This document shows, one piece after another, positions 968-10,153 of a stretch of DNA of 64,000 bases (its first letter is position 1; the number at the start of each line of letters is the position of its first letter). The DNA comes from Ruminococcus sp. (GTDB lineage: Bacteria; Bacillota; Clostridia; Oscillospirales; Ruminococcaceae), in NCBI GenBank assembly GCA_017543335.1, contig JAFYGE010000023.1, forward strand, positions 1-64,000, in the 5' to 3' direction. The notes beneath the pieces were generated by a model, which worked only from the letters and a program-made list of their open reading frames with translations, made no database searches and was not told where the DNA came from. Both the position numbers and the translations under genes were made by a program.

Positions 968-3900
968 TCACTTTGTCTCTGGTTCAAGAGACTTTATTGT
1001 CTGTACCAGATATTTCTGTATCATAACTGCATCCATATTAGTTATGTCGCCGCCTTTATGATCGTAAACATCGCCCCAGTACGAACCTTCCTCAGTGATA
1101 GCAGTCGAAGCTGTACCGCCAATACCATATTCATCAGAATTTGAAGCTGCCTGCATTATGAGAACAGCATCGTTCATCTTAACTTCGCCGCTCATATTGG
1201 CATCGCCCCAAACTCCTGTTGGATCTGGATTTTTATTACCGGCAACATCCTCAAGATATGAAGCCATCCATACAAGAGGTGCGTTCCAGTTAATGTTTAC
1301 TCCGTTAACTGACCATGCTTCTGCACTGTCTACATAGCATTTCTGACTCGCAACAGTACCACGCTTGAAGCCAACTCCGCTCATGTAATTATCCTGCATA
1401 CCTGCATTTGGTCCGCCGGACAGTACTCCAGCCGGTGCAAGTGGGAAATTAGCGTCAATACTGCCAGCCCAGAATCTATGGTGTGGATATTTGAGCACTG
1501 TATCCATTTCAGTATCTCCATAACCTGATATATATGAGAAGTCGTTACCATTGCGTCCAAAGAGATAGTCCATAGCAGTTGAAGCACCGTCAAGGTACTT
1601 ATATTTTCTTCCGGAAGCCTCATAAGCATATGCCATAACCATCGCATTATTTACAACATATGAGTTTGAACCATTCTCGTAGCCATTGATCTCTATCGGG
1701 TTACCTTCATCAGTAAGTCCAATACCAACTGCATCTGTATACGTAAAACCGACATATGGAATGCCCATGCCAGATATTTTTTCAAGCTCGATGTACTTAT
1801 CAGCAGCCTGAATTATCGAATCTTCAACAGTCTTAGCATCATCAGATGAAAGCTTGTATCTGTTCAGATAAAGTGAGAGTGTTCCGAGACCGGATGTGCA
1901 TCCCCAATTGAAAGAACTGCACGACCCTCTGTTTTCTCCGCCGACAAGATTGTATGTGAGTCCGAAAGCTTTATCAGAACCTGTAACATCGTTCTTATTC
2001 TCATAATTCCTGAGCTTTGTCAGGTACTCATCTTCACCTGTTGTAGCGAATAGCTCACAAAGTGCCCAATAGTAGTCATCCTCCACATATGTATCACCGT
2101 AAGGCTCTCCGACTACAGCCTGATCGAGAGGTGCAAACAGCGGATCATTGCCTCTGATATATCCATCACTTGTGTCATCTTGTTCAAGAGGATCACCTTC
2201 TTTTACACTCCACGCAGACTTATGCTTTTCAACAGCAGCGAGACAATCCTTTGCTATATTCAGGCACTTATCAGCAAATTCATCATCTATGCCTCTCCAG
2301 AGACGAGCAGCCTGTGCAGCACAAGCAATTGTGTTGAATGTAGCTGCATACGTCGGAGGTTTAGCGATACGTGCTATACCTTTTTCGTACTCACCATAGT
2401 CCCATGCATATAAAGCAAGACCAGTCCACTTAGAGTCTTGGATTTTGTGATAAACAAGACCGGTAGCATTTGCCTTTGAACCCTCATCGCCCCAGTATGG
2501 ATCGTCACCTTTAACTATCATATCGAAGAACCATTCGAGCTCAACTCTCGCCTCATCAAGAAGGTCCGGTTTACCGTTTGAGTTTTCCGGAATGAGCATT
2601 GTCTTGGCATCATTCCACTTTTTCTCTGTACCGAGCTTCAGGGACATCTCGTACAGATTCTGAAGAGTCCAAACAGATATACCGCCGTTAACAACATTTT
2701 TTCCATGATTCTCAGCGTCGTACCAACCGCCTGTTGCTGTTATAGAATAGTCCTTATCGCCATCAAATTCTGATGAGTAATGCTTCACCCATGCGGACTG
2801 AACATATGCTTTATCAGGATTATGACCTTCCTTACTATGTTCAAGTTTAGTAGCATCGCCGTTCTTTATGTACTTACCCTCAATAGGAACACCTGAACGG
2901 TTCTGATAGAAATAAGAAACCGAGTCTCTTACAAGATCACCATAAACATCATTACTGATTTTGAAAGGATGAGATCTATTCATTTGATATTCTTTCGATG
3001 TTTTCCAGTTTGTCCACATAAGCTTATCATCAACAAGCTTAGTATCGAAAGCACCCTCATTATTACAGAACTGAGTTCCGGAAACACCAACCTTATCCTT
3101 AACTATGATATAATAGCCGTCACCAGCTGTAGAAAGTTTAGAAAAATCAAGTATGTGAACATACTTACCCGAGTCCTTATATCTTGTGATCAGCTTCCCG
3201 CCGTCTCCCCTGACTTTTACAGTCTCAGGTGTACCGGAGTCAACATCGTCAGAAATTAATATTGACTTACCATTAAGTACAGGCTTATCCGACTTATCGT
3301 ATACGGTGAATTCAAGTGGTTCAGACGCATCTGTAGTATAGGAAGCTTTCTTAGAAAGTTTAGTGAAATATCCTACTTGGTTAAGACGAACATTAGACTT
3401 TGGTTTTATAATGCCATATTCAGAAGACTGAGGTTCAACCGCATCATCGCTCAAATCCTGAATCGACAAATTATCAAACGTGATAGTAGCACCATTCGGA
3501 ACACCAGTATCATCGCCGCCGTACTGTGCAGCACCATCTGTACCCTTATGGCAAGCATAGTAGAAAGCCCACTCTGCAGGGCCGTCTTCAAGAGCAGAAG
3601 GACCTGAACCATCAGTAAAGTCAGTATCAATAACGAATGTCTGACCCATCTTTAACTGAACTGGCTGCCAGTTACCGTTACCTGCATCGTTCCAGTACAC
3701 TTTATTACCAGCATAGTTACCTATCTTTGTATAAAGGTAAGCATCTGCTGAACAAGTGATCTCAGCGTGAACGTGATATTTATGACCATTTACAAGCTGG
3801 ATTCCTTTATGGCGGAACTGAAGATCCCATCTTCCGTCGCCTCCAAAATTATTAAGAATTCGTACCTGATATTTTCCGTCATTGATATCAAAAGTTTGCT

Positions 3901-4096
3901 TAGCAGAATTTGATTCACAGGTATGCCATGGCAAACCTATATTATCATCAAAAGTTGTTGCACCCAGAAGTTCAGTTCCAAGATTTGGTATTTCAGCAGA
4001 AGCACTCATCGGAGCTATCGCACTGCAAACAGTAGTTGCAAGCATTGCTGCTGACAAAAGACTTCCAGTAATAGTTTTCTTCATATATTTATACAT
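968..4096 (-). CDS. secreted CBM4/9-Ig-GH9-dockerin protein lacking both catalytic residues (predicted pseudo-cellulase)
   Basis: 1042 residues: signal peptide (1 to about 35, ending MSASA), CBM4/9-like module (about 35-215), CelD-type Ig domain starting VRLNQVGY (about 236-350), GH9 module (about 385-945) and dockerin (about 960-1040). It is colinear with its neighbour 4229-7384 over the whole length. The GH9 base motif, DAGD (460-463) in the neighbour, reads DAEN here (codon 463 is AAT, 2708-2710). The acid, Glu936 of an NE motif in the neighbour, is Gly932 here (codon GGA, 1301-1303). Substrate-site features such as PHHRFW, WGCTSG and VEDDYYWAL are kept. The frame is intact, so this is not an ordinary decayed pseudogene. 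Hydrolysis is predicted to be absent; a binding or structural role in a cellulosome is inference. Start chosen from GGGAGGG six to seven bases upstream; an ATG four codons later is possible. Confidence 0.92.
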   Translation of the reverse strand: MYKYMKKTITGSLLSAAMLATTVCSAIAPMSASAEIPNLGTELLGATTFDDNIGLPWHTCESNSAKQTFDINDGKYQVRILNNFGGDGRWDLQFRHKGIQLVNGHKYHVHAEITCSADAYLYTKIGNYAGNKVYWNDAGNGNWQPVQLKMGQTFVIDTDFTDGSGPSALEDGPAEWAFYYACHKGTDGAAQYGGDDTGVPNGATITFDNLSIQDLSDDAVEPQSSEYGIIKPKSNVRLNQVGYFTKLSKKASYTTDASEPLEFTVYDKSDKPVLNGKSILISDDVDSGTPETVKVRGDGGKLITRYKDSGKYVHILDFSKLSTAGDGYYIIVKDKVGVSGTQFCNNEGAFDTKLVDDKLMWTNWKTSKEYQMNRSHPFKISNDVYGDLVRDSVSYFYQNRSGVPIEGKYIKNGDATKLEHSKEGHNPDKAYVQSAWVKHYSSEFDGDKDYSITATGGWYDAENHGKNVVNGGISVWTLQNLYEMSLKLGTEKKWNDAKTMLIPENSNGKPDLLDEARVELEWFFDMIVKGDDPYWGDEGSKANATGLVYHKIQDSKWTGLALYAWDYGEYEKGIARIAKPPTYAATFNTIACAAQAARLWRGIDDEFADKCLNIAKDCLAAVEKHKSAWSVKEGDPLEQDDTSDGYIRGNDPLFAPLDQAVVGEPYGDTYVEDDYYWALCELFATTGEDEYLTKLRNYENKNDVTGSDKAFGLTYNLVGGENRGSCSSFNWGCTSGLGTLSLYLNRYKLSSDDAKTVEDSIIQAADKYIELEKISGMGIPYVGFTYTDAVGIGLTDEGNPIEINGYENGSNSYVVNNAMVMAYAYEASGRKYKYLDGASTAMDYLFGRNGNDFSYISGYGDTEMDTVLKYPHHRFWAGSIDANFPLAPAGVLSGGPNAGMQDNYMSGVGFKRGTVASQKCYVDSAEAWSVNGVNINWNAPLVWMASYLEDVAGNKNPDPTGVWGDANMSGEVKMNDAVLIMQAASNSDEYGIGGTASTAITEEGSYWGDVYDHKGGDITNMDAVMIQKYLVQTIKSLEPETK

Positions 4097-4171: not shown

Positions 4172-4197
4172 AAAAAGGGACGCCGCAGCGTCCCTTT
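4172..4197 (-). terminator. terminator of the middle GH9 gene
   Basis: GGGACGC / GCGTCCC stem (4177-4183 with 4188-4194) with a four-base loop, followed on the minus strand by TTTTT. It lies 32 bases past the stop of the gene at 4229 and before the next GH9 gene. No convincing -35 box was found between it and the 4096 start, so the distal gene may depend on read-through or on a weak promoter around TATAAT near 4154. Confidence 0.85.
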
Positions 4198-4228: not shown

Positions 4229-7200
4229 TTACTTTGTAGGATCGAGAGAAGCAATAGTGTGGATGAGGAACTTCTGGATCTGAACTGCATCCATGTTAGT
4301 GATGTCTCCGCCATTGTGCTGGTAAACATCGCCCCAGTATGCACCGTCAGAAGTAAGAGCGTTCTTGTCAGTACCGCCGATACCGTACTCATCAGAGTTA
4401 GAAACAGACTGCATGATAAGAACTGCATCGTTCATCTTAACTTCGCCGCTCATGTTAGCGTCGCCCCAGATACCATCCTTAGGATCATCTCCGCCGCCTT
4501 CGCCGGAAACCTTAGGAGCTACATCCTCGAGGTAAGAAGCCATCCAAACGAGTGGAGCATTCCAGTTGATTGTGATCTCGTTAACTGACCAAGCTTCTGC
4601 ACTATCAACATAGCACTTCTGGCTTGCAACAGCACCACGCTTGTATCCAAGACCACCAACATATGGATCCTGCATACCAGCACCAGGACCACCAGAAAGG
4701 ATTCCGTTAGGAGCCTTCGGGAATGCTGGATCTACGCCATTAGCCCAGAATCTGTGGTGTGGCCACTGAAGAACGTTACCAGCCTCTGTATCACCGTAAC
4801 CAGTTACATAAGAGAAGTCGTTACCGTTACGTCCGAAGAGGTAGTCCATAGCGATTGAAGCACCGTCGATGTACTTCTGCTTACCATTCTTAGTTCCGCC
4901 TGAAGCATCATAAGCGTAAGCCATAACGATAGCGTTGTTAGCAACGAAGGAGTTTGAACCCCACTCATAACCTGTAACTTCGATTGGGTTACCGTTCTCA
5001 TCAAGACCGATGTTGATTGGATCTGTGAATGATGAGCCCTCATATGGGATACCCATACCAGTTGCATTTTCCTGAGCTATATACTTATCAGCAGCGAGCA
5101 TGATAGAATCGCTGACTGCCTTAGCATCAGAAGCTGAAAGCTTGTCGCTGTTCAGATAGAGTGAGAGTGTTCCAAGACCGGATGTACAACCCCAGTTGAA
5201 GGAGCTGAATGATCCCTTGTTCTCACCGCCGCCGAGTCTATATGTGAGGCTGAGAGCCTTATCGCAGCCTTCTTTATCATTCTTATTATCATACTTCTTG
5301 AGCTTTGTGAGGTACTCTTCATCACCTGTTGTAGCGAAGAGCTCACAGAGTGCCCAGTAGTAGTCATCCTCTACGTATGTATCACCGTAAGGACCACCGC
5401 CGATAGCCTGATCAAGAGGAGCGAAGAGTGGATCTGTACCTCTCTTGTTTGTGCCCTTTATATCATCCTGCTCAAGTGGATCGCCTTCCTTGATAGCCCA
5501 CTTGCTCTGGTGTTTCTCAACAGCAGCGAGACAAGCCTTAGCATTTGCGAGACACTCGTCAGCAAACTTATCATCAATACCCTTCCAGAGACGTGCAGCC
5601 TGAGCAGCACAAGCAATTGTATTGAATGTAGCAGCATACGTTGGTGGCTTAACTATACGAGCCATACCTTTTTCGAACTCGCCGTAGTCCCAAGCGTAGA
5701 TTGCAAGACCAGTCCACTTAGAGTCATGGAGCTTGTGGTAAACAAGACCTGTAGCCTTAGCCTTAGAACCGTTGTCGCCCCAGTATGGATCATCGCCCTT
5801 AACGATCATGTCGAAGAACCACTCAAGTTCTACTCTTGCCTCGTCAAGAAGGTCAGGAGCACCATTGGAGTTCTCAGGAATGAGCATTGTCTTTCCGTCA
5901 TCCCACTTGCTCTCTGTGCCTATCTTCTTAGACATCTCATAGAGGTTCTGGAGTGTCCATACAGATACACCACCGTTAACTACGTATTTACCGTGGTCAC
6001 CAGCATCGTACCAACCGCCTGTAGCAGTGATAGAGTACTTTTCATCACCATCGAATGTAGATGAGTAAGACTTAACCCATTCTGGCTGTACATAAGCTGT
6101 ATCTGGGTTATGACCCTTCTGTGAGTGTGCAAGCTTAGGATCTGTACCATTCTTTATGTACTGAGACTCAATTGAAACACCAGAACGGTTCTGATAGAAG
6201 TAAGATACTGAATCTCTAACGAGATCGCCGTAAACCTTATCACTTACAGAGAAAGGATGTGACTTGTTCATCTGGTAAGACTTCTTAGTCTTCCAGCTTG
6301 TCCACATTACCTTATCTCCCTCGATAGTTGTATCGAAAGCACCCTCATAGATTCCGTACTGTGTGCCAGATACACCAACCTTATCCTTAACAACGATATA
6401 GTATCCGTCGCCAGCTGTTGTGAGCTTGGAGAAATCAAGTATGTGAACATACTTACCGGAATCCTTATATCTTGTGATCATCTTTCCGCCGTCGCCCTTA
6501 ACCTTAGTTGTCTCAGGTGTACCAGACTCGATATCACCGGAAATAACTGTTGACTTACCGTTAAGTACAGACTTGCCTGACTTATCGTATACGTCGAATT
6601 CAAGCGGATCAGCAGCATCTGAAGTATATGAAGCCTTCTTAGCGAGCTTTGTGAAGTAACCTACCTGGTTAAGACGTACATTTGACTTTGGTCTGATAGC
6701 ACCGTATTCATCTGTACCTGAAACAGGTGGGTCACCGCTAAGGCTCTGGAGAGACATATTATCGAATGTGATAGTAGCATCGTTCGGAACACCGGTATCG
6801 CTTCCGCCATACTGTTTAGCACCATCTGTTCCCTCATGACAAGCATAGTGGAAAGCCCACTCTGCAGGGCCATCTTCAAGAGCAGAAGGACCTGAACCAG
6901 CAGTAAAGTCAGTATCGATAACGAATGTCTGACCCTTCTTTAACTGAACTGGCTGCCAGTTACCGTTACCAGCATCGTTCCAGTACTCCTTAGTACCAGC
7001 GTAGTTACCTATCTTTGTGTAAAGATAAGCATCTGCGGAACAAGTGATCTCAGCGTGAACGTGATATTTATGACCGCTTACGAGTTCGAGGCCTCTGTGA
7101 CGGAACTGAAGGTCCCATCTACCAGCACCACCGAAGTTATTCTTAACAGTCATTGTGTATTTACCATCTTCGATTTCAAATTTCTGCTTAGCTGGGTTAG

Positions 7201-7384
7201 TCTCACAAGTATGCCATGGAAGACCGACACCGTCATCAAAAGTTGTAGCACCTAGCTGCTCAGAACCAACATTTGGGATCTCAGCAGAAGCACTCATTGG
7301 AGCTATAGCACTGCAAACAGTTGTTGCAAGCATAGCTGCTGACAAGAGACTACCAGTTAATGCTTTTTTAAAGTTCTTGTGCAT
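4229..7384 (-). CDS. secreted cellulosomal endoglucanase, CBM4/9-Ig-GH9-dockerin
   Basis: 1051 residues with signal peptide (about 1-35), CBM4/9-like module, CelD_N Ig domain (VRLNQVGY), GH9 catalytic module and C-terminal dockerin. It should hydrolyse beta-1,4-glucan as part of a cellulosome on or outside the cell. Catalytic residues are visible: the DAGDHGK motif with Asp460 and Asp463 (nucleophilic water and base), and the acid Glu936 in SVNEITINW. The first dockerin loop is WGDANMSGEVKMND; the second (DVYQHNGGDITNMD) is two residues longer than the classical one. The start follows GGGAGGG. It is the active sister of the protein at 968-4096 and lies directly upstream of it on the same strand. 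Its 5' untranslated region is long and structured. Confidence 0.96.
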   Translation of the reverse strand: MHKNFKKALTGSLLSAAMLATTVCSAIAPMSASAEIPNVGSEQLGATTFDDGVGLPWHTCETNPAKQKFEIEDGKYTMTVKNNFGGAGRWDLQFRHRGLELVSGHKYHVHAEITCSADAYLYTKIGNYAGTKEYWNDAGNGNWQPVQLKKGQTFVIDTDFTAGSGPSALEDGPAEWAFHYACHEGTDGAKQYGGSDTGVPNDATITFDNMSLQSLSGDPPVSGTDEYGAIRPKSNVRLNQVGYFTKLAKKASYTSDAADPLEFDVYDKSGKSVLNGKSTVISGDIESGTPETTKVKGDGGKMITRYKDSGKYVHILDFSKLTTAGDGYYIVVKDKVGVSGTQYGIYEGAFDTTIEGDKVMWTSWKTKKSYQMNKSHPFSVSDKVYGDLVRDSVSYFYQNRSGVSIESQYIKNGTDPKLAHSQKGHNPDTAYVQPEWVKSYSSTFDGDEKYSITATGGWYDAGDHGKYVVNGGVSVWTLQNLYEMSKKIGTESKWDDGKTMLIPENSNGAPDLLDEARVELEWFFDMIVKGDDPYWGDNGSKAKATGLVYHKLHDSKWTGLAIYAWDYGEFEKGMARIVKPPTYAATFNTIACAAQAARLWKGIDDKFADECLANAKACLAAVEKHQSKWAIKEGDPLEQDDIKGTNKRGTDPLFAPLDQAIGGGPYGDTYVEDDYYWALCELFATTGDEEYLTKLKKYDNKNDKEGCDKALSLTYRLGGGENKGSFSSFNWGCTSGLGTLSLYLNSDKLSASDAKAVSDSIMLAADKYIAQENATGMGIPYEGSSFTDPINIGLDENGNPIEVTGYEWGSNSFVANNAIVMAYAYDASGGTKNGKQKYIDGASIAMDYLFGRNGNDFSYVTGYGDTEAGNVLQWPHHRFWANGVDPAFPKAPNGILSGGPGAGMQDPYVGGLGYKRGAVASQKCYVDSAEAWSVNEITINWNAPLVWMASYLEDVAPKVSGEGGGDDPKDGIWGDANMSGEVKMNDAVLIMQSVSNSDEYGIGGTDKNALTSDGAYWGDVYQHNGGDITNMDAVQIQKFLIHTIASLDPTK

Positions 7385-7696: not shown

Positions 7697-10153
7697 TTAT
7701 TTGTATGACTCTGGAAGCTCCGTAACAGCACCTATGAGGAACTTCTGAATAGAAAGAGCGTCCATATTTGTAAGTCCTGTACCGTTTGCGTATACATCGG
7801 CATTGATCTCACCCTGCTCTGTAAGATGAGTCTTCTCAGAACCATTCAGACCATAGAGGTCATCGTTAGCAAGTGCCTGCATTACGAGAACAGCATCGTT
7901 CATCTTAACTTCACCGCTGCAGTTTGAATCGCCCCATAATGTTGCCTTAGGAGTATTACCTGTTGTAGGCTCTGTAGGGTCAGTCTGAGAGCCTCCGCCG
8001 TTTCTTGTGAATGTATAATCAGACTTTGTAGGCTTTGTTCCGTCCGGCTCTTCGCCCCATACAAGGATTCCGTTTACATACATTGGAATGTGCTCGTTGA
8101 GAGAATCATCCTTTTTAAGGTCAGTAGCATCTGCAAGTCCGCCGAGATATGACCAGTCATTTGAACAATCCCATGCACCTGCTGTAGACTTGCCTTCGAT
8201 AGCATCCGGAATTGAGATTCTGAACTGAACTTCATCTCTGTGCTCACTCTGACCGGTAGGCATTATAGCTCTTCCGTCATCAAACACGATATCAGCGTAG
8301 TAGATGTTTCCTTTATACTGGAACGGACCCTCTGCATGAGCATAGCCCTGTTCTCCCTCAGTATACTGCTGTGACTTAGTCTCAACCTTGATCTGATCGA
8401 TAGTAAGACCTTTATCAAGCAGCTCAGTTACGTCAAAGAAGTAGCGGAACTTAACATCTTTAGCAACTCTTGCAGGCCAAGCTGTATGGTTCATAGCCCA
8501 AGCCTTGATTTCTGTATAGCTGTTTGCAGGCTGACCATTAAGGACTGCTGCAACTTCCCATTCTGCCCACTTCGGAGTCTCTGTTGGTGGGAAGTTTGTA
8601 AGCGGACTTCCGCCGTAATCATCGATCATAGCACAAAGTGCTGCTGTGAATCCGGCATTATAGTCGATAGCAACTTCGGTATACTGGTAGTCAGAAACTG
8701 AGTAGCTTCCGTAATTACCCTTGCTGTCAGGACCGCCGATAAGAGCTCCGTAAAGTGTGTGGGCATACTCTGTCTGCCAGCCCTCATTAGTTGCAGCTGT
8801 TGAGCCGAGCTCATTCCAGTGGTCATCGTGGATACCGGAAGCAGCTCTGTGGTGGAATACTGAAGGCCACTCATCGCCCATACCGAGGACGTAGCTGATG
8901 CCCATTTCATTGTCACCGAAGCAATAATTCATCTGAAGATTGCCCCACTTGTCAGCCTCAGCTGCAAAAGCAGTGTCGTCTTTAAGAATAGTATCACTTG
9001 CAAGCTTTGCAAGCCATGCTGTTGTTGTAGAATGACGGAGGCATCCCCACTGGAAGAGGTATGAAAGTCCCTTAGGAGTGATATTGTCAAATGCCTTTAT
9101 ACCGGAGGACTTATCGCTGTTGCCTACGCCCATCCAATACTGGAGATGCTTCTTAACATGAGCAGTCCACTCTGGTGAACCTGTGTTCTGAGCATAAAGG
9201 AATGCAGCAGCCTGTGTGGAGTCATCCCAGCAGAAGCCCCATGTATACTTTTTATCAGTAGACTGATTCTCCAATGGGAAATGTGGGATATAGTCAGTCT
9301 CGCACTTTGTGAGATATGACTTATCGCCTGTAGCTCTGTAGAGCCAGTTAGCAGCATACATAAGCTCGTCTACATAGTTTTCAACATCGTTTCCATGCTG
9401 CTGTATATTATAGAATTCCTTCTGAGTACCCTGTCCGTCATCGCTTCTAACCTTATCAGCACGCTCAAAGAGGCTCTTTGCCTGCTTGAGGTATGAAGCA
9501 GCGAGTGTAGGATCCTCATCTTTGAGGAGTATAGAACCTTCTGCAAGTGCAGCAGCCATATATCCTGTTACTGTTGAACAAGTCATAGTATCGTAAGGTC
9601 TTTCCTCTTTGCCCTTACCGTCCATTATCTTATATTTTCTGATATAAACTTCCGGACTTCCCCACCATTTATGGTCAAACTGTGAAGGTCCGATAGTACC
9701 GATGACCTCATCACCGAGATCACATCTTGAAATATAATCGAGTCCCCATTTGAGGTTATTCATGTAAAGGTCATAGAGACCGGCTTTCTTGACAGCATCC
9801 TTATACTCGATGAGTCCCCATGCGAGAACAGATGCAGTATATGCATTTGTAAGAGTGAACTTGAAGTGGTCGCCGGCATCATACCAACCGCCGTCAATAA
9901 CATCAGCCGGTGTGCCGTCCTCTTTCATCATAGAGTCGTCTCTCCACTGAACAGTGTTCCAGTCAGGAAGCTTACCGGACTGCTGCACTTCATAGAAGAA
10001 CATTGACTTCTGGAGTGCCTCAGCGTAGTTATAGCTGCTTGCAGCGTATGCAGTTATCGGCTGTTCTTCAACCTTGATAGACGGTGCATAAGCAGCCAGT
10101 CCTGCTGTCATTGCAAGTGCGGATGCAGCAGCAGTGATTCTTTTGAAATTCAT
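7697..10153 (-). CDS. secreted cellulosomal GH9 endoglucanase with CBM3c and dockerin
   Basis: 818 residues: signal peptide (about 1-38), GH9 catalytic module from about 41 to 510, a CBM3c-like module (about 525-690) and a dockerin (about 735-818). The order GH9-CBM3c matches the processive endoglucanase type (Thermobifida E4 / Clostridium CelG architecture, from family knowledge). Catalytic residues are visible: DAGDHFKF with Asp92 and Asp95, and Glu493 in YTEVAIDYNAGF. The dockerin has first loop WGDSNCSGEVKMND and the same extended linker between loops as the two downstream GH9 proteins, so all three probably dock on the same cohesin. It has its own consensus promoter (10223-10251) and terminator. 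Start supported by GAGGGG ten bases upstream. Confidence 0.96.
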   Translation of the reverse strand: MNFKRITAAASALAMTAGLAAYAPSIKVEEQPITAYAASSYNYAEALQKSMFFYEVQQSGKLPDWNTVQWRDDSMMKEDGTPADVIDGGWYDAGDHFKFTLTNAYTASVLAWGLIEYKDAVKKAGLYDLYMNNLKWGLDYISRCDLGDEVIGTIGPSQFDHKWWGSPEVYIRKYKIMDGKGKEERPYDTMTCSTVTGYMAAALAEGSILLKDEDPTLAASYLKQAKSLFERADKVRSDDGQGTQKEFYNIQQHGNDVENYVDELMYAANWLYRATGDKSYLTKCETDYIPHFPLENQSTDKKYTWGFCWDDSTQAAAFLYAQNTGSPEWTAHVKKHLQYWMGVGNSDKSSGIKAFDNITPKGLSYLFQWGCLRHSTTTAWLAKLASDTILKDDTAFAAEADKWGNLQMNYCFGDNEMGISYVLGMGDEWPSVFHHRAASGIHDDHWNELGSTAATNEGWQTEYAHTLYGALIGGPDSKGNYGSYSVSDYQYTEVAIDYNAGFTAALCAMIDDYGGSPLTNFPPTETPKWAEWEVAAVLNGQPANSYTEIKAWAMNHTAWPARVAKDVKFRYFFDVTELLDKGLTIDQIKVETKSQQYTEGEQGYAHAEGPFQYKGNIYYADIVFDDGRAIMPTGQSEHRDEVQFRISIPDAIEGKSTAGAWDCSNDWSYLGGLADATDLKKDDSLNEHIPMYVNGILVWGEEPDGTKPTKSDYTFTRNGGGSQTDPTEPTTGNTPKATLWGDSNCSGEVKMNDAVLVMQALANDDLYGLNGSEKTHLTEQGEINADVYANGTGLTNMDALSIQKFLIGAVTELPESYK

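Follow-up and report, generated by a model that had tools for sequence, protein, structure and literature searches.

CbhA of Clostridium thermocellum (PDB 1ut9 and 1rq5) and three proteins of Ruminococcus albus 8, Ra3055, Ra1589 and Ra1743, share their module order and sequence family with the protein described here, which is encoded by a minus-strand gene at positions 968–4096 of a 64,000-nucleotide stretch of Ruminococcus sp. DNA (contig JAFYGE010000023.1; the whole stretch is hereafter called the window). In this order a carbohydrate-binding module (CBM) of family 4 is followed by an Ig-like domain and a domain of glycoside hydrolase family 9 (GH9). Papers cited below by PubMed Central (PMC) number are represented by the passages found of each. 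Asp383, Asp386 and Glu795 have been named as the catalytic residues of CbhA (PMC3795549), and the CBM4_9-Ig-GH9 enzymes of R. albus release mainly cellobiose (PMC5066209). Unlike the latter, two of which end in CBM37 while the third has no CBM37, the window protein carries a dockerin; unlike CbhA, it lacks the equivalents of Asp386 and Glu795 as well as residues of the substrate cleft. A laboratory mutant of CbhA, E795Q (1rq5), is inactive and was crystallised with uncleaved cellotetraose (PMC6038386, PMC6096475). The window protein resembles this mutant in its changed acid position; however, the base and the cleft residues are lost as well, and therefore the substrate binding of the mutant cannot be transferred to it.

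Natural glycosidases without activity are known from beetles. The GH9 protein of the coconut rhinoceros beetle was inactive on all substrates tested (PMC10981690); it differs from the window protein in being of insect origin and the sole GH9 found in the beetle's transcriptome, and the passages found of that paper do not name its lost residues. In GH28, another family and again in insects, active paralogues are accompanied by inactive ones whose catalytic or substrate-binding residues have changed, and silencing of these pseudoenzymes lowered food conversion (PMC8213348). Expanded GH45 families of beetles contain proposed pseudoenzymes in which the base is replaced by Asn and the acid by Val (PMC6509783). 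The window protein likewise has Asn at the base position, although the beetle proteins are from insects, and the passages found of the GH45 paper describe no parallel births beside one parent.

Cellulosomes also hold non-hydrolytic dockerin proteins, among them CttA of R. flavefaciens, which we take to be devoid of a GH9 domain. CttA has been described as a non-catalytic, dockerin-containing and CBM-bearing cellulosome protein (PMC2721979), and the expansin-like CclEXL1 exemplifies a dockerin-bearing, non-enzymatic kind of protein that improves hydrolysis by cellulases (PMC4788839). Unlike the window protein, CclEXL1 has expansin domains and no cellulase origin. The genome paper on strain FD-1 (PMC2721979) describes five CBM4-bearing GH9 proteins as enzymes, and neither 'inactive' nor 'catalytic residue' occurs in its main text; 'inactive' is also absent from the main texts of PMC4081043, PMC5301203, PMC12484212, PMC8092306 and PMC3672088. 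No inactive cellulosomal GH9 was found in the titles and starts of abstracts of the open-access literature searched, and the beetle protein was the only inactive GH9 that this search yielded. Inactive glycosidases (beetle GH28, GH45 and GH9) and non-hydrolytic dockerin proteins (expansin-like, CttA) are already known; the window protein would add to them a class of pseudoenzymes inside the cellulosome, probably of repeated origin.

Loss of the catalytic carboxylates and of probable substrate-cleft residues

Our preferred reading, to which we give a probability of about one half, is that the window protein is a selected, non-hydrolytic and glycan-binding subunit of the cellulosome, held there by its dockerin. 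That it is a selected pseudoenzyme is well supported, while the binding of glycan is what we infer. The gene is an uninterrupted frame of 1042 codons with CBM4/9, Ig, GH9 and dockerin modules, as stated in a preliminary description of the locus. The match to Glyco_hydro_9 (PF00759; E = 6e-70) covers positions 1–443 of the 444-position profile, which places the protein in the GH9 sequence family; the CBM4-Ig stretch is covered by a match to structure 3k4z, giving the module order of the CbhA type; and the C-terminus matches the solved R. flavefaciens dockerin 5m2s (E = 3e-15), a type I dockerin. The best solved relative of the protein is CbhA itself (1ut9, 1rq5). In the alignment to the CbhA structures, residues 460, 463 and 932 correspond to CbhA Asp383, Asp386 and Glu795 (positions counted along the PDB alignment).

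At these positions the minus-strand codons read GAC for Asp460, which is kept, GAG for Glu462, AAT for Asn463 and GGA for Gly932. The reported replacement of DAGD by DAEN and of the catalytic acid by Gly was therefore borne out. The second Asp of DAGD, the base, and the acid Glu are gone and only the first Asp is retained, so that the protein does not have the residues of a GH9 catalyst and, as in pseudoenzymes, the conserved catalytic motif is absent; hydrolysis is not expected of it. The adjoining sister gene (78% identical) keeps all three catalytic residues and reads DAGD and NE, in agreement with the preliminary description.

The changes extend beyond the carboxylates. Five residues invariant in predicted-active copies have also been replaced (Y467N, H553Q, G664E, W808N and T934N), and judging from their position, alignment and invariance they probably contribute to the substrate cleft; Trp808 presumably resembles a stacking Trp of Thermobifida fusca Cel9A. 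The notions that exactly two catalytic residues had been hit, independently, and that the substrate-site motifs had been kept do not survive this comparison. Sequencing error is very unlikely: of the sites that do not vary among predicted-active relatives ten differ here, and at six of these a change recurs in another genome.

The orthologue of the window gene in a sister species (L055:5924–9121 in genome G001, the same gene as L050:5956–9135) encodes an 85% identical protein which keeps both Asp, the Glu and His553. Among 132 sites invariant in intact relatives, the two proteins share changes at Y467, G662, G664, W808, P903 and T934; G462E, D463N, H553Q and E932G are found in the window protein only, and K551R, W731R, I935L and N936E in the orthologue only. 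Since the orthologue has cleft changes with the triad intact, the cleft seems to have changed first in the window lineage, with the carboxylates following later in the window species. Alternatively, the triad of the orthologue may have been regained from the tandem neighbour by a very short gene-conversion tract; a long tract was not found, with mismatches at 30 of 138 positions over codons 440–485 and at 19 of 93 over codons 915–945. The orthologue, with its triad intact and Y467, G664, W808 and T934 changed, possibly represents a half-way state.

Dead copies in the genus and the number of their origins

Copies in which at least one of Asp460, Asp463 and Glu932 is changed are hereafter called dead, and those with all three present intact or active; the two classes are defined by sequence. 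Of 125 genomes of the genus, 116 had matches at E ≤ 1e-100 and were typed; one typing round scored the best eight candidates per genome, and weaker copies may be missed. The main set comprised 180 CBM4-Ig-GH9 rows from 108 genomes, divided into 114 with an intact triad, 55 dead ones (from 43 genomes) and 11 partial ones, and eight further genomes of the genus added six intact rows, two partial and none dead. The rows from G001 and G042, with intact triad and lost cleft, are intact in these counts and dead in the trees. A typed intact copy accompanies the dead one in 35 of the 43 genomes concerned, and three more (G067, G093 and G108) carry a broken or partial copy of intact type. This recurrence of dead copies in relatives suggests a useful job other than cutting. 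The exact pair DAEN/NG, for which related strains had been proposed as a place to look, is confined to the window among the 55 dead rows; one other row has NG, together with DAGN (L184).

In the first set of sequences, Tyr467, His553, Gly664, Trp808 and Thr934 were invariant in 65 intact rows (66 minus the orthologue of the window gene) and changed in all 19 dead ones. In the main set the five positions read YHGWT in 111 of the 114 intact rows and in none of the 55 dead; the three intact exceptions read YSGWT, NHNNA (the orthologue in G001) and SQAYS (G042). None of the five residues is kept in 44 dead rows, one is kept in ten and two in one, with Tyr467 retained in four rows, His553 in one, Gly664 in six, Trp808 in none and Thr934 in one. 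Throughout lineages A, B, C and D the residues at positions 467, 664, 808 and 934 are lost; four jointly lost sites compare with 0.02 expected and were reached in none of 20,000 draws, which were confined to 71 island sites treated as equal. Two rows were set aside in this analysis, that of G042 and L139 of lineage F, in which Thr934 is retained.

The dead copy might instead serve as a decoy that binds GH9 inhibitors, phages or antibodies and so shields its active sister, much as a paralogous decoy reportedly shields PsXEG1 of Phytophthora. Dead paralogues do recur in genomes with an intact copy. However, no GH9 inhibitor relevant to the rumen is known to us, and the cleft shape seen by an inhibitor should persist, yet it is the cleft that changes most; a decoy is accordingly very unlikely.

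Among the 55 dead rows Asp460 is retained in 20, Asp463 in 23 and Glu932 in 17. Such residues, displaced or partly kept, could allow a remodelled cleft to act on another wall glycan; the cleft islands are still under constraint (ratio of nonsynonymous to synonymous rates, omega, 0.12–0.28), and dead rows carry an acidic residue more often than intact ones at positions 383 (0.64 vs 0.29), 531 (0.60 vs 0.20) and 606 (0.85 vs 0.26; window numbering). These three positions lie outside the cleft islands, however, and the window copy has neither the base Asp463 nor the acid Glu932. Moreover, positions 460–463 plus 932 show 45 different motifs in the 55 dead rows, which speaks against a common new chemistry. 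Changed catalysis thus appears quite unlikely as an explanation of the dead copies, somewhat more so than the occupancy of cohesins considered below.

The trees were quick ones with long branches, and the large tree was built without a mixture model. With the cleft columns removed, the dead label required ten changes on a tree of 174 GH9 rows, nine of them forced by starred branches. In lineages A, B, C, D and F the dead clades stand beside the intact copies of the same lineage (support 88–99); the placing of lineage E is weaker, that of I unsupported (27), and the parent of H unclear. A single old dead clade was rejected on the non-cleft columns under a mixture model (approximately unbiased test, p = 9e-77, 4e-134 and 3e-86 for two, three and four lineages, respectively).

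The cleft islands tell a more mixed story and bear on the possibility that all dead copies, with a function as in the preferred reading, descend from one old lineage which gene conversion has homogenised, outside the cleft, with the active copy of each genome. In the island protein columns a branch (94, not starred) holds the 11 dead rows together, and pairing by lineage is not rejected (p 0.37–0.39). Whole-codon nucleotides of the islands join the dead copy of D with those of C (95, starred) and those of A with those of B (91). Site patterns common to dead copies are in excess, also at four-fold sites, but because slowly evolving actives inflate this pattern it was not used as proof of common origin. 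A conversion-like tract is also seen in the CBM region of the window gene, where codons 121–180 (3557–3736) are 94% identical in nucleotides to the sister (96% at four-fold sites) and 72% to the orthologue; codon 179 still differs between the dead gene and its sister. Against one old lineage stand the rejection on non-cleft columns, the third positions of the islands, which group the dead copy of D with its own intact copy (93) and leave the dead copies of A and B with the A+B actives (95, starred), and the finding that in two lineages (G000/G001 and G114) the intact copy is followed immediately on its 3' side by a dead one.

The better reading appears to be that the dead state arose several times, with parallel cleft changes. 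As the full island nucleotides group some dead copies across lineages, we retain one old lineage with gene conversion as a doubtful alternative, and for the same reason we only lean, on balance, towards the view that ruminococci with cellulosomes repeatedly turn the duplicate of one cellulase into a standing non-cutting subunit by the same route, in which the cleft Trp and other groove residues go first, the carboxylates follow, and the CBM changes to match. Across the genus the intact copy is usually found beside a GH9-CBM3 gene and often beside rplA-rplK-nusG. Apart from the two cases mentioned, the dead copies examined are located elsewhere, those of G006, G010 and G068 having one neighbour family in common; since most lie away from the locus of the intact copy, synteny cannot date them. 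Three copies are present in genome G114 (L183:8982–12107, L184:3784–6912): an intact one, a dead one immediately 3' of it and, at another place, a further dead one that shows DAGN and NG.

Beyond the genus, a family sample of 247 genomes contained 29 with matches, four of them from the genus. The triad is intact in all 25 complete best-locus rows, of which one (L245) belongs to the genus; 24 read YHGWT and one YQGWT. Nine second copies came from other genera, and three of these, from two other genera, have a changed triad: L269 (AASD and Glu; HQNYS), L270 (EAGD and Glu; STRRS) and L271 (DAGD and Ser; YHSFS). Of the remaining six, five read YHGWT and one YHGWA.

Selective constraint, retained modules and possible function

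On the window branch of a codon quartet omega was 0.203 over residues 35–1042, and omega = 1 was rejected (p = 6e-4); the dead and intact branches of this quartet are alike (p = 0.27). In lineage B the values were 0.178 for dead and 0.168 for intact copies, with a range of 0.15–0.21 in this lineage. The cleft islands are relaxed in the dead branches of three out of four quartets (0.275, 0.156 and 0.227 vs 0.029, 0.041 and 0.034; p < 0.01), with omega below 1 in the dead branches of all four, and over the rest of GH9 and the CBM-Ig region dead and intact copies do not differ in omega (one case comprising only 43 codons).

With an open frame and omega = 1 rejected, the window gene shows neither the neutral evolution nor the broken frame of a pseudogene. 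One might still regard it as a young pseudogene on its way out that has yet to acquire a stop, such as is found within the match in three dead copies elsewhere. Besides the omega values of the window branch and of lineage B, dead clades of up to 19 rows spread over many genomes speak against this view, as does the ribosome-binding-like stretch GGGAGGG ahead of the ATG at 4096 (a consensus match only), and we hold it to be the least probable of the explanations considered. The selected non-hydrolytic role put forward in the preliminary description consequently stands as far as selection in a protein without the normal catalytic machinery is concerned, given the constraint on the window branch and the dead copies in 43 of 108 genomes; its supposed basis in preserved motifs does not.

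A change in the CBM accompanies the dead state. Residue 179 is His in all 108 intact rows compared and in six of 53 dead ones, Gln in 28 dead rows and Tyr in the window protein; the triad-intact orthologue in G001 retains His179. For the 163 rows bearing both traits the dead label needs eight changes on the tree and the residue-179 trait 12, and residue 179 tracks dead status in 6.9 of eight independent pairs on average, the opposite being seen in none (median p 0.016). The coupling points to a different mode of contact with glycan. The modules themselves persist: hidden Markov models (HMMs), built partly from the tested rows, recognised both CBM and Ig in all 53 full-length dead rows and all 100 intact ones, and the dockerin in 43 and 94 of them, respectively. 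The window protein is presumably secreted; it is identical to its sister over residues 10–38, which overlap its signal-peptide-like N-terminus.

The dockerins of the two proteins agree in 65 of 86 aligned columns, and therefore both should reach the same cohesins. This raises the possibility that occupancy itself is the function, the dockerin filling cohesins and thereby setting the spacing and dose of active GH9, with the GH9 fold as a bulky spacer. The retention of 18 conserved dockerin sites, at a mean of 0.91 across 19 dead rows, and the lack of a shared new cleft motif are in line with it. Occupancy, however, leaves the coupled change of the CBM histidine without explanation, and the dockerin HMM is silent in ten of the 53 full-length dead rows, although one of these, L213, has a Pfam dockerin; we regard occupancy alone as unlikely.

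According to the preferred reading of a selected, glycan-binding subunit, tandem duplication of a CbhA-like CBM4-Ig-GH9-dockerin cellulase (a cellobiohydrolase-type GH9) would have produced the window gene. The substrate-cleft residues would have been lost first and the catalytic carboxylates later, while purifying selection kept acting on the remainder of GH9, on the CBM and on the Ig domain. Through its dockerin the dead protein would attach to scaffoldin cohesins of the kind that receive its active sister, and its CBM, perhaps together with a remodelled GH9 groove, would bind plant-wall glucan or another wall glycan without cutting it. The bound subunit could then help to hold, spread or loosen the fibre for neighbouring enzymes. 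Both the cellulose-binding and the cohesin-occupancy proposals of the preliminary description are compatible with the evidence; none of the observations speaks to the sugar sensor that it also proposed.

Several observations weigh against this reading. All three triad residues are lost in only seven of the 55 dead rows and Glu932 persists in the 17 mentioned, so the dead copies may have residual or altered activity; nor do they share a single new set of cleft residues. Binding by the GH9 groove is a guess, since the residues expected to hold sugar are lost, and the beetle GH28 pseudoenzyme tested no longer binds its substrate, pectin (PMC8213348). In quartet B the cleft is not relaxed relative to the actives (0.115 vs 0.082; p = 0.65), and on the window branch two tests, one of 84 dockerin codons and one of 191 codons, did not reject omega = 1. 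An in-frame stop interrupts the match in three dead copies (G050:C18, G007:C29 and G111:C77). The dockerin HMM missed ten of 53 dead and six of 100 intact rows, and a crude signal-peptide pattern was recognised less often in dead rows (44 of 53) than in intact ones (98 of 100). Retention of the fold is suggested by the full-length GH9 family match, yet an AlphaFold2 model from seven sequences had a mean predicted local distance difference test score of 40, too poor for use.

If the preferred reading is true, some of the GH9 proteins counted as 'cellulase' in these fibre degraders are not cellulases, although inventories would list them as enzymes, and the cellulosome holds a class of subunits with a job other than cutting. 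Pfam scores the dead copies far above its cut-off, and a family match alone is no proof of a working GH9. Parallel conversion would amount to a natural experiment, indicating that the non-cutting form pays and naming the residues that go. Because a dead and an intact sister with similar dockerins are neighbours within a single genome, the claim is easily testable.

Features of the locus and further observations

The window belongs to an assembly of 95 contigs, whose named relatives are Ruminococcus sp. RGIG2886 (goat omasum) and R. flavefaciens UBA3730. Coordinates of the features discussed are given in Table 1.

Table 1. Features of the dead gene and its neighbours in the window
Feature	Position	Strand	Basis
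CBM4-Ig-GH9-dockerin paralogue lacking catalytic base and acid, 1042 aa	968..4096	-	Open reading frame, Pfam, PDB alignment
Signal-peptide-like N-terminus, residues 1–36	3989..4096	-	By eye
CBM4/9 module, residues 47–144 by Pfam, probably longer	3665..3958	-	CBM_4_9; CbhA CBM4 structures 3k4z, 3p6b
CBM-region residue 179, Tyr	3560..3562	-	Alignment of relatives
CelD_N Ig-like domain, residues 233–334	3095..3400	-	Pfam
GH9 domain (Glyco_hydro_9), residues 385–944	1265..2944	-	Pfam, PDB alignment
DAGD motif reading DAEN, residues 460–463	2708..2719	-	Codons; Asn463 (base position) at 2708–2710
Catalytic acid position, Gly932	1301..1303	-	Codon GGA
Cleft position 467, Asn (Tyr in 112/114 intact rows)	2696..2698	-	Row alignment
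Cleft position 553, Gln (His in 112/114 intact rows)	2438..2440	-	Row alignment
Cleft position 664, Glu (Gly in 112/114 intact rows)	2105..2107	-	Row alignment
Cleft position 808, Asn (Trp in 112/114 intact rows)	1673..1675	-	Row alignment
Cleft position 934, Asn (Thr in 112/114 intact rows)	1295..1297	-	Row alignment
Type I dockerin, residues 958–1042	971..1225	-	Match to 5m2s, sister alignment
Terminator-like hairpin separating sister and dead gene	4174..4197	-	Consensus match only
Predicted-active sister (CBM4-Ig-GH9-dockerin; DAGD, NE), presumably of the parental type	4229..7384	-	Pfam, alignment
GH9-CBM3 protein, in the genus often adjacent to the predicted-active copy	7697..10153	-	Pfam, synteny

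Owing to the hairpin that separates it from its sister, the dead gene may be a transcription unit of its own. The three stop-bearing dead copies, L200 (G050), L215 (G007) and L180 (G111), are possibly decaying. In L102 (G067) and L178 (G108) the copy of intact type is split into two frames, which may be an assembly error or a real loss; both genomes carry an unbroken dead copy. L182, L213, L217 and similar loci encode dead GH9 proteins of about 1200 residues with extra regions, several of them without a match to the dockerin HMM.

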